From Cylindrotheca closterium (taxonomy: Eukaryota > Bacillariophyta > Bacillariophyceae > Bacillariales > Bacillariaceae): a stretch of 64,000 nucleotides of DNA. The notes under the pieces are model-generated. The model had not been told where the DNA came from, did not search any database, and saw nothing but the letters and a program-made list of their open reading frames with translations. The translations under genes were made by a program, and so were the position numbers. Shown here one piece after another: positions 33,768 to 38,173 of the stretch. Every line of letters begins with the position of its first letter. The stretch's first letter is position 1. The DNA is taken from the NCBI GenBank assembly GCA_933822405.4, contig CAKOGP040002313.1:710916-774915 (forward strand), written 5' to 3'.

Positions 33768-36052
33768 TTATATGTAGTCTGGAAAGCTCTTCAATAGATG
33801 ATCTGTCAATACCTCAGAACCCGCACCGGGGTGAAGCACCATCCATTTTTCTTGCTCCTCCATGACTTCGCGGAAAGTTGGACCATTTGGAAGACTTGGC
33901 AAGATCTTTTTGATTTCATTTCCACCTAGCAATGGTTTCTCTTCCCATATCCCAATCACACCTATTCGTTGCATAGCAGTAGCAAACGAGTCATATCGAT
34001 CAATTTCACCTTTTCGCAATTCCTCATGAGCTTCATCCACCTGTTGTTTTATTGCAGAGAAGGAGGAGGAAAGGATAGCGCAATGTGAGTGTCTAGATAT
34101 CTGTGGTCTCTAATCAGCACCGCGCCATCGGAACTTACAATATCGCCTTCTATAGCATATTCCATTTCACCTTCTAGTTGCTTGTTCATGTGTTCGGATA
34201 AAGACAGGAACAGAGCCGCTCGCCAAAGTGATCCGACCTTTTTGAGAATCTGGGTACATTGCAAACGAAACTCCATGGCGTGTTTCCATATGGGATCATC
34301 TTCTGTTGCGCTTTGCACTGGCTTTCCTTGCATCGAGCATTTAAATTTCGAATCACTGTTGTCGCTTGTTTCATCAGCATCTTCGATCCGAATATCGCAA
34401 AGCAACACCGAGACTGCAGAAAGGTCAACTCCAGCATTCATCAATTTGGTAAAGTCATTGGCCCCCTTCACAATTTTTTCAATCGCATCAGAATCCCGAG
34501 TGGGTCGTTTCAATTCGTCTACCAAAAGCCTGGAAATGGTGGATCGATTAGCTTTTCTGCCCTGTCGTTTGCTAACTTCAATCTCCTTAACTTTTCGCGC
34601 AGCGTCGTCAATAGGCTTCAAGAATGCAGCGTACCACAGCAACCTCCGTGCATAACCGTCCTCTCTCAGCGTCAACTCGGTGACGCCATGAGTGGTGTAG
34701 GATTTCTTGGATTGACACCAAATAGGTGGAGAATACTTGCAGTCGTCGAGGTGTTCGTGTGTGATAGTCAACAAGCTCAACCCCTCATCGAAAAGGTCAT
34801 TGTTGGTGATTTTGATTCCATCTGAGCAGTTCTCTACTGGGTATACCGTTCGGACCAAATTCAAGTTAATCAATAATCGCATCGCTCCCACTGGGTCAGG
34901 AGACCTGAACATGAGATCAACCTCGCATCCGATGCGTTCTCTTGATACCTTTTCTGCCAACGATTCCCTCACGCGACTGTCCCTTGCTGCTTCTACCAGT
35001 GATTCATCCATGGTAAATCGCAATCGTGCAGCAAATCGAACGGATCGTAGCACACGAAGGGGATCATCTAGTAGTGTCGTCAAGGGTGCCAAAGGAGTGC
35101 CCACTATACCTCGCCTCAGATCATCAAATCCGCGGCCCGTCCAGTCCTCCACTTGGGCATTGTTTACATTGTAAAACAGAGAATTAATTGTCAAGTCTCG
35201 TCGAAAAGCATCTTCCGCTGGCGTTCCTATTCTCATCAAGTCAGGAATTCGGCTGTCTTGGGTATATTCTTCGGCACGAAGGTTGACAAAATCGATCCAA
35301 AAGGTTCCAACCTTCATAGTGGCAGTTTCCAGGTGCTTCGACTTTTCAGGATTCTTCAAGACGACCCCAACGCTGTGGGTTTCTTCTCCCACTTTTGCCA
35401 AGTATTCATTGAGGCGATCCGCAAACTCTCGACCCAACATATCATCTAATGCGATATCAATGTCCACCGGTTTTTGCCCCTCGTCGCTCGCCAGTACCTT
35501 GGTACCTTGACGCCCCATACTGGTGGCAACATATTTCGAAGTTAACCGTCCCTCTCTTATTTGAGTTCTTGTGAATTCCGGAGTGGCCAGCAGTTTATCG
35601 CGAACCCATCCTCCCGCCACTCGCAATGTTGTGGAAAGGTCGGTTTCTTTTCGTGCTCGTCTTAGCAGTTGAAACAACTGCCGTTCTTCGTCAGTCAGCT
35701 CAATGTAAGGTCCGTAACCTCGCTTTGGTTCAAATTCAAAATCGGGTAGCGATGTAGAAATCGACGGATTCTGATTGTCCTTGCTTGGTATTTTTTTCTC
35801 GCTTGCAGAGGAATCTTTTGCCAATACAGGATCTGTTCGGCGCACAGCCACGGCCTCTAGCATATCATTATTATACCACTCACTTCCATAGAATCGTAAT
35901 TGCCGAGAATCCATCGCCTGTAATCGTACTCGTTGCTGATGTCCATGACGCCACAGCCGATTAGTGCCTCTGTGATGCAGCTGAAGTCCAGCGATGGTTC
36001 GCGCTGTAACCATCACAGTCATCGCTACTATGTGAATGGAACGGAAAATCAT
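33768..36052 (-). CDS. TRNT1: CCA-adding tRNA nucleotidyltransferase
   Basis: Adds and repairs the 3' CCA of tRNAs. Two exons (36052-34139 and 34040-33768) with a 98-bp intron join in phase (GTAAGT donor, ACAACAG acceptor) to give 728 residues from ATG 36052. The nucleotidyltransferase head shows RVAGGWVRDKLL, the metal-binding DIDIALDD, RRDLTINSLFYN, DWTGRGFDDLRRGIV, and DDPLRVLRSVRFAARL. The tail after LEPF-like motifs is long and acidic, with KPLLGGNEI and GPTFREVMEEQEKW near the end, as in eukaryotic enzymes. The N-terminal ~120 residues, with a hydrophobic start, could target it to organelles. A tRNA gene that lacks an encoded CCA lies 760 bp upstream. Confidence 0.94.
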
Positions 36053-36796
36053 TTGATTCTGGTATTCTATGTATTCGTTTCGTGTGTAATGCTGCTGTTT
36101 ACCGGTATGCTGGTGTTATTGCTGTTGTTGTTAATTCTAACTCTTCTTCTATCGATTGTCATTCAAAGATGATTTTGGAGTTGAGTTTGTTGGTGGTACC
36201 AGCACAGAATAAGAGAAGAATTGATCAATCAATCAGCATCCCCTCATTAATATTATTGAAGGGCGAGGATGCTTTCCAACGTTCGATCGATCCAAATCTA
36301 ACGTCGTAGGTTTCTACATACGAAATCTAAAACATCCGGGTCGCTTCAACCCGAACCTGAAAAAGAATCAGAATCTGCTGGAAAACCCAAATTGGCGAAC
36401 GCACTGACGTTCGAGAATTGACACATACAGTACAGCAGTACGGATTAGATTTTCATCTGCAATCCTCTCCTCAAAAGAAGACTGAGCCCATAGGTGCCAA
36501 AAGACCACCAATGATATAAAACTGAAGTTATAATATTGTTCGGTCTGCACTGTCGGTCTTGCCGTCGTTTTTTAAAATTGCGCACAAATATTGCTTTTGA
36601 CACTGTGGTATTTTGTACCCGCTACGGTACGAACCGGTACATGGTACCGGTACTGTAGTTGCGCGCAAATCATATTTTTCACACTGATCATAGGTAGACA
36701 AACAGTACAGTACTATAGGAAGGTACGTATCAATAGCCTGACAATGTGATAAAACAAGAGCATTCCACATGTCTCTAGAGGCAATAAAAATAAAAA
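36053..36796. other. Intergenic upstream of the CCA-adding enzyme
   Basis: Short T/G-rich simple sequence (36100-36150) and a GGTAC/ACCGGTA palindromic cluster (36618-36660). No coding sequence supported. Confidence 0.4.
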
Positions 36797-36797
36797 A
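36792..36797 (-). terminator. Pol III terminator after the permuted tRNA
   Basis: Six T in a row on the minus strand, 15 nt beyond the last 5'-half nucleotide, with a second T5 at 36786-36790. Its place after the 5' half, not after the T arm, is what a permuted gene requires. Confidence 0.7.
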
Positions 36798-36812
36798 GGG
36801 ACTCAAAGCGTC

Positions 36813-36921
36813 ATAAGACCACCACTCTAACCACTGAGTTACAGGAGCGTCTAGTCTGACATTGACTTGCAACGGGCAGACCTTTACTCCAGGTGGGGTT
36901 CGAACCCACGACCAGTGGCTT
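36813..36921 (-). tRNA. Permuted tRNA-Ile (anticodon UAU): 3' half precedes 5' half
   Basis: Read on the minus strand, the 3' half (36921-36885) comes first: AA of the anticodon loop, anticodon 3' stem GCCAC, variable loop TGGTC, T arm GTGGG-TTCGAAC-CCCAC, acceptor 3' strand CTGGAGT and discriminator A. After a 36-nt spacer comes the 5' half (36848-36813): acceptor GCTCCTG, TA, D arm ACTC-AGTGGTTA-GAGT, G, anticodon 5' stem GTGGT, and CTTAT ending at position 36. Joined, they give exactly 73 nt; all stems pair (one T-T mismatch and one G-T in the acceptor, one G-T in the anticodon stem), and the anticodon is UAU. The D arm resembles yeast tRNA-Ile(UAU). No CCA is encoded. A T6 terminator follows at 36792-36797. 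Permuted nuclear tRNAs are known in red algae and prasinophytes. Confidence 0.85.
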
Positions 36922-36940
36922 TCTCGTCGCTGGAGTCGCC

Positions 36941-38173
36941 ATTTGTTGCGAATTTTTGGCATATAAACAGAGAATAGGCCCGCTCTCTCTAGGCCGAAAG
37001 AACTCGGAGGCTATAAAAAAAGATCTCGGACAAGGATAGAGCAATGTCGCTGCATGTTAATGCTGTGACAGCAGCAGCGATCAAGATTGAAGGTGCCAAG
37101 AAGAAAGTCGTGGCAGAAGGAGGAGACCACGAGGAACATGAAACTCCATTGGAAAATAGAAACGACCAACTTCTTGGTTCCATTCACGCCAGTGGAAAAT
37201 GGAAGTAATAGTTGCAATAGTCATTCGAACATTATTGTCACTTACCATCATTGGAGGTGCCATTCACAATCGGTTAGTCTCCATGTGGTTTGGCATGTCC
37301 AGCAATGATAGCACCAACAGGCCTCAATTTCTGCTCTACTCCAACAGTCCAATACTTCCAGTAAACGGCTCAAACGCTCCCTTTTGACATTGCAGTGAAG
37401 TCAGTACCTTGACATATCTTCGCTATAGATGTCTTGGACTTGATTAGCAACAGTTAGCATCGAAACTGAATGTATTCATCAAACCGTGTGCAACTTACTT
37501 CTTTGGACATCATTTCTGTTCCACTACTCCAATACTTCTCGGAAATGATGCAACTAATCCCTTTATACCATGGGGCGATGGTGGTAGATTGTTGTTATCA
37601 GAGGTCAAACAATTCATGGGAAGTCAACCGTCAATTTCTTTGAGATGAAATGTCGACCATGACGTGATTGTGTCTACGCCAACGCGTCAATTATTCTTAT
37701 GGAATCACCTCCAATTGCTCGCTTAAGTAGAACAGAGAACTGTGGCTTGTAATAGTATTGCTGCTTTTGGACTTCCCGAGAGACAGCAACACTCGGAATG
37801 GTTCTGTTCGGGTTGAGACGATAAAATTCAAAACATCAGGTCAGTTCTCATTGAATATTATAGATTCAATACTTCACACGATACCGACTCAATCCGACTA
37901 CCAAAAATATTCTATCGCTAGGTACACGTATAAGTGTGATGATTGTTCACTTTATGGGTGTTGGGACATCGTAATTTGCAAGCCATCACCAAACTTCTCA
38001 TGATCTTCAACTTCAAATTTTTGTTGTGTCTCGCGACCGTCCATCTGTCGCTCCTTCACTGGCAAAATAATGCGGCTGTGATTTCAATTATTTTCAACAA
38101 TATTCAAGATAACCACCTTGTGATCTACCTACATTTGACCGGGTTCTTACAATTCAGAATTGTATTGTAACAC
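36941..38173. other. Long intergenic region
   Basis: It holds a 54-codon frame at 37044-37208 (start MSLHVNAVT, Lys/Glu-rich), without homology I recognise. Otherwise AT-rich sequence with no RNA gene or repeat seen. Confidence 0.3.

Follow-up and report, generated by a model that had tools for sequence, protein, structure and literature searches.

Two 36-nt tRNA segments were found on the minus strand of the window, the whole stretch of 64,000 nucleotides from the marine pennate diatom Cylindrotheca closterium that was analysed. The segment forming the 3' half of a tRNA lies 5' of the segment forming the 5' half, and 37 nt stand between them. The initial annotation had described this permuted order on one strand, with a B box upstream of an A box, and both its arrangement and its coordinates proved exact (Table 1). 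Read along the minus strand, the locus consists of a TATA-like box, a leader, the 3' half, the intervening sequence, the 5' half, a trailer and a run of six T.

Table 1. Position of the features of the permuted tRNA locus in the window.
Feature	Position	Strand	Content or basis
TATA-like box, TTTATATG	36960..36967	minus	about 40 nt upstream of the 3' half
Leader (extent inferred)	36922..36940	minus	constrained folding and duplex test
Leader GACTC	36937..36933	minus	pairs with trailer
Leader AGCG	36931..36928	minus	pairs with trailer
Leader GAG	36925..36923	minus	could pair with C32-U34
tRNA 3' half	36886..36921	minus	loop bases 37/38, anticodon 3' strand, variable loop, T arm, acceptor 3' strand
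B box in 3' half	36906..36896	minus	sequence
Intervening sequence, 37 nt	36849..36885	minus	first base A, the would-be discriminator A73
tRNA 5' half	36813..36848	minus	acceptor 5' strand, D arm, anticodon 5' strand, C32, U33, anticodon
A box in 5' half	36841..36831	minus	sequence
Anticodon UAU in 5' half	36815..36813	minus	sequence
Trailer	36798..36812	minus	CGCT (36810..36807) and GAGTC (36804..36800) pair with leader
T6 run, likely Pol III terminator	36792..36797	minus	starts 15 nt past the 5' half

When the 5' half was joined to the 3' half (tRNA positions 37-72), the resulting 72 nt were called tRNA-Ile(tat) by ARAGORN, whichever base, A or G, was placed at position 37, in agreement with the anticodon UAU proposed at first. 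In this join 20 of the 21 stem pairs are formed (acceptor 6/7, D 4/4, anticodon 5/5 and T 5/5), the acceptor stem containing one G-U pair and the U6-U67 mismatch, and the earlier description of stems paired except for one acceptor mismatch was thus borne out. The variable loop has 5 nt, and by inspection U8, G18G19, U33 and U54U55C56 are all present. The D stem contains an A10-U25 pair, G10 being the usual base at tRNA position 10. The U6-U67 mismatch is also found in a conventional tRNA-Arg(CCT) of the same genome (locus L056).

The gene is located on a contig of 774,915 bp together with genes for eIF3 zeta, tubulin and WD40 proteins, which agrees with the assignment to a heterokont nuclear genome made beforehand. 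An organellar origin was considered and rejected, based on these neighbouring genes and on contig C95, inferred to be mitochondrial, which has its own tRNA-Ile(GAU). In the viral contigs, a 28-nt part of each half had no exact match.

Detection in the window and search for a conventional copy

In the unjoined window, neither ARAGORN nor Rfam at its gathering scores reported a tRNA at this place, and the gene was missed by both annotation runs. A covariance model (R1) was built from 19 conventional nuclear tRNAs of the same genome, excluding the target, with their halves swapped at 37/38 and natural upstream flanks of 8-39 nt placed between the swapped halves. At E<=10 this model gave a single match in the window, at 36920..36812 on the minus strand, over its full length and with 62.9 bits (E-value 5.4e-18, a rough value from a short calibration). 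Over 32 loci (97,928 bases, some of them overlapping and many with conventional tRNAs) the permuted gene was at the top (57 matches), and everything else had 31.2 bits or less. Since conventional tRNAs reached E-values down to 1.7e-7 with R1, the E-value alone cannot define a permuted gene, and the full-length score of 62.9 bits is decisive. The conventional model R2 gave two matches at the locus, each confined to one half; they scored 27 and 13 bits and spanned 51 and 48 nt, respectively. Independently of these models, the window was found to contain 33 T-arm-like sites, one of which yielded a tRNA by permuted joining to downstream segments, whereas none of the 1953 such sites in 60 dinucleotide-shuffled windows did.

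The initial annotation had made its reading depend in part on whether an intact tRNA-Ile(UAU) gene occurs elsewhere. With BLAST and three sequence patterns, no uninterrupted tRNA-Ile(UAU) was found in the 47.6-Mb assembly, a result to be read as a lower bound in an assembly that may be incomplete. The lack of a colinear gene with the same anticodon is usual among permuted tRNA genes, although it does not strictly define them. In the BLAST search, the 72-nt join matched, apart from the two halves themselves, three tRNA-Ile(AAU) at 81-82% and a tRNA-Met of contig C7, while the 231-bp locus matched nothing in the assembly but itself. The D-arm/anticodon pattern (up to 3 mismatches) was found at 19 places, which are the permuted gene, nine conventional tRNAs with other anticodons and nine non-tRNA places, the latter judged by ARAGORN (introns up to 200 nt allowed) and R2. 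The loop-to-T-arm pattern (up to 2 mismatches) was found at 36 places, comprising 33 tRNAs, one tRNA-Thr fragment and two non-tRNA places (C552, C572), none of them with UAU. Among these 33 tRNAs, 28 overlap the RF00005 tRNA inventory and five more (Ile-GAU, Thr, Asn, Met and Val) lie outside it; the inventory is incomplete, with 63 of 1908 first-look candidates scored, and ARAGORN found a tRNA in all 60 loci taken from the 63. The third pattern matched one non-tRNA place in the assembly and recovered no known tRNA, and hence has no sensitivity of its own. Reversed-pattern controls gave 24 places against 19 for the D-arm/anticodon pattern, 26 against 36 for the loop-to-T-arm pattern and 16 against 1 for the third, and as the counts do not stand consistently above these controls, the identification rests on the inspection of each place.

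Among the 376 Ile codons counted in 12 of the 25 long ORFs, 82 are AUA; this is a rough count, with Pfam families in 7 of the 8 scanned among the 12 ORFs. In principle, AUA might also be read through inosine-34 of tRNA-Ile(AAU), so that a single copy of tRNA-Ile(UAU) is no proof of need.

Leader, trailer and the predicted processing pathway

With the cloverleaf enforced, GACTC and AGCG of the leader pair with GAGTC and CGCT of the trailer below the anticodon stem. Leader and trailer contribute 14.8 kcal/mol, a value equalled by 21 of 3000 flank pairs drawn at random from the window; in a looser duplex test, the pairing was equalled at 338 of 21,225 positions (1.6%) and by 170 of 5000 mononucleotide shuffles. 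By inspection, the junction has the potential to form a bulge-helix-bulge of the relaxed form, with 3/4 pairs and one extra base in the central helix. Left unconstrained, the precursor folds with slipped arms and gains 3.8 kcal/mol over the enforced cloverleaf, and its advantage over its own shuffles is modest (z -2.41 and -1.93 for two lengths). The intervening sequence could form a hairpin prolonging the acceptor stem (-9.7 kcal/mol), and 90 of 2000 mononucleotide shuffles were as good.

No T4 run occurs anywhere from the leader through the trailer, and about 1% of window positions combine 129 nt free of T4 with T5 or more in the next 24. For context, 35 conventional nuclear tRNA genes were used, a set that leaves out 25 genes on contigs C7, C70 and C95, taken as organellar. 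T4 or more follows within 10 nt of the gene end in 32 of the 35, and TATA lies within 50 nt upstream in 16 of them, compared with 7.7% of the 50-nt stretches of the window. The TATAT of the permuted gene falls inside this 50-nt range.

From this layout, Pol III would transcribe the leader, the 3' half, the intervening sequence, the 5' half and the trailer and stop at T6. The tRNA-splicing endonuclease would then cut within the anticodon loop and a tRNA ligase would close the ends into a circle, from which RNase P and tRNase Z would excise the intervening hairpin; after addition of CCA, the tRNA would be charged and decode AUA. Two matches to tRNA_int_endo (PF01974) above the cut-off and one match to RNA_lig_T4_1 (PF09511), presumably a Trl1-type tRNA ligase, were found in the assembly, and there was no match to the RtcB ligase in the genome, which speaks neither way if the joining is done by the other ligase. 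Three nuclear tRNA-Tyr(GUA) loci (L109, L110, L111) contain by inspection 13-nt insertions at 37/38 whose sequences differ, and ARAGORN gave a 13-nt intron in two of the three, at slightly different positions. The endonuclease and ligase domains together with the intron-bearing tRNA-Tyr genes suggest that the cell uses the splicing pathway on which a permuted tRNA depends.

The next long ORF downstream (36052..34049, minus strand) encodes a CCA-adding tRNA nucleotidyltransferase (PF01743; several relatives are so named), which is 100% identical to a Cylindrotheca closterium protein over 89% of the query. The permuted tRNA would need such an enzyme, and its location next to the gene is probably a coincidence.

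Base 37 and the site of cleavage

The anticodon loop had been given at first as CTTATAA, as in many tRNA-Ile(UAU). This is correct if the junction lies at 36/37 (A37) and incorrect for the usual 37/38 junction, with which the loop is CTTATGA (G37); the sequence permits both. In the latter case, placed according to eukaryotic tRNA intron numbering, the 3' half starts at 36920 and the 5' half ends with G at 36812. The geometry of leader and trailer favours the 37/38 cut, i.e. G37. By inspection, this cut would involve a 3' bulge A-A^A38 and a 5' bulge U36-G37^A, with a short central helix of C32-G, U33-A and U34-G between the two bulges and the outer helix beyond. Such an arrangement appears close to the canonical relaxed motif, from which it deviates by the unpaired A35, which faces C, and by a single additional base. 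The minimum-energy folds pair the junction stretch somewhat differently from this inspection.

On the functional side, t6A37 is described for nearly all ANN-decoding tRNAs (PMC4717488), which argues for A37. According to the available text of PMC9976931, t6A37 is not a determinant for eukaryal-type IleRSs, except the human cytosolic enzyme and related mammalian ones, so that G37 is possible. Of the features expected in the loop of a tRNA-Ile(UAU), the anticodon UAU and C32 are present, and A37 is present only with the 36/37 junction. On these functional grounds we lean slightly towards A37.

In yeast, tRNA-Ile(UAU) is the classical example of pseudouridylation that depends on an intron: in vitro, its U34 and U36 were converted only as long as the precursor carried the intron (PMC4090602). 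By analogy, a permuted precursor could serve this purpose through its leader/trailer helix, and a permuted tRNA-Ile(UAU) is a test of whether such a helix can replace an intron. We propose, tentatively and with somewhat more doubt than belief, that the sole AUA-reading tRNA has been kept in permuted form with the leader/trailer helix replacing a lost intron, and that the precursor is cut at 36/37 so that the 3' half supplies A37, or else that AUA is read by a tRNA-Ile with G37. If true, a 36/37 cut would depart from the usual rules of eukaryotic tRNA splicing, and reading by G37 from those of ANN decoding. The conflict at position 37 provides a sharp prediction on the cut site of the splicing endonuclease.

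Alternative explanations and known permuted tRNA genes

We regard it as highly likely that the locus is a circularly permuted nuclear tRNA-Ile(UAU) gene with its junction in the anticodon loop, and probably the only source of this isoacceptor; judged from its sequence features, the gene is probably functional. The main alternative, which we consider unlikely, is a rearranged pseudogene unable to give a working tRNA, left when the outer halves of a tandem duplicate of an intron-containing tRNA-Ile(UAU) were lost, with AUA being read by the inosine-34 tRNA-Ile(AAU) or by a tRNA whose gene the assembly lacks. The U6-U67 mismatch and the G37 left by a canonical cut would fit this explanation, as would a partial tandem copy beside a tRNA-Thr gene of the same genome, indicating that such duplications do occur. 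However, the mismatch is shared with a conventional tRNA, and a decayed copy is at odds with the retention of 20/21 stem pairs and a perfect T arm, with the presence of leader/trailer pairing, terminator and TATA-like box, and with the assembly searches, in which a second tRNA-Ile(UAU) was not found.

An assembly artefact is very improbable; here the misjoining of a conventional or tandem tRNA-Ile(UAU) locus would have left just the inner halves visible. Tandem tRNA genes can collapse, but the 231-bp locus matches only itself and sits within a contig of 774,915 bp, and complementarity between leader and trailer is not expected from a misjoin. The least credible explanation, to which we give almost no weight, is chance similarity or a part of a coding exon. 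A 144-aa ORF (36962..36528, minus strand) does overlap the gene, but this ORF and a 77-aa ORF have no Pfam match at E<=1, and chance similarity was rejected on the R1 E-value of 5.4e-18 and the absence of tRNAs at the 1953 shuffled sites.

Six algae and one archaeon contribute to a compilation of 34 permuted tRNA genes, whose intervening sequences measure 1-74 nt, and the available part of that compilation includes no tRNA-Ile and no stramenopile (PMC3978253, Soma 2014). Later additions are two permuted tRNA-Ser in the Amorphochlora nucleomorph (PMC4494063) and permuted tRNA genes in the green alga Auxenochlorella (PMC12636532). The initial annotation had named no diatom example, and in line with this no permuted tRNA gene of a diatom or any other stramenopile was found in the literature searched, which covers few subscription journals, most of them lying outside it. 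As far as this literature goes, the gene belongs to a known kind, and what is new about it lies in the lineage, in the isoacceptor and in the problem of position 37.

The diatom gene resembles the Type II (37/38) genes of prasinophytes and of the Bigelowiella natans nucleomorph (PMC3978253) in the order of its halves, their location on a single strand, the junction in the anticodon loop, the length of its intervening sequence (37 nt, within 1-74 nt), the T run after the 5' half, the AT-rich upstream box and a possible relaxed bulge-helix-bulge of leader and trailer. It differs from them in its stramenopile host, in its isoacceptor, as Ile(UAU) is absent from the 34 in the available text, and in the G37 that a 37/38 junction would leave. 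Nuclear tRNA genes are also disrupted in Cyanidioschyzon merolae, and tRNA-Ile(UAU) is disrupted in both organisms; however, the C. merolae gene bears three introns (PMC9602550) and is not listed as permuted (PMC3978253, Table 1), and permuted junctions of C. merolae occur at several positions, unlike the anticodon-loop junction of the diatom gene. The Auxenochlorella genes likewise represent a recent extension to a further algal lineage, in that case a green alga (PMC12636532). The tRNA-iMet and tRNA-Tyr of Thermofilum pendens share the permuted order and a proposed single transcript with the diatom gene, but they are archaeal, with a junction at 59/60, an encoded CCA and additional introns (PMC3218864).

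The hosts described previously are a red alga, green algae, green-derived nucleomorphs and one archaeon (PMC3978253, PMC4494063, PMC12636532). A case in the host nucleus of a diatom would add the stramenopiles and would favour an independent late origin of permuted tRNA genes.

In the present genome, two tRNA-Thr(AGT) genes lie in opposite orientation about 200 bp apart (contig C392, 146712-146785, plus strand, and L115, c140-215). On contig C2, a full tRNA-Thr(TGT) gene is followed directly by a partial copy of itself (L119, 82-142, minus strand), which obtained 22.9 bits with R2; permuted genes have been proposed to start from tandem duplications of this type.
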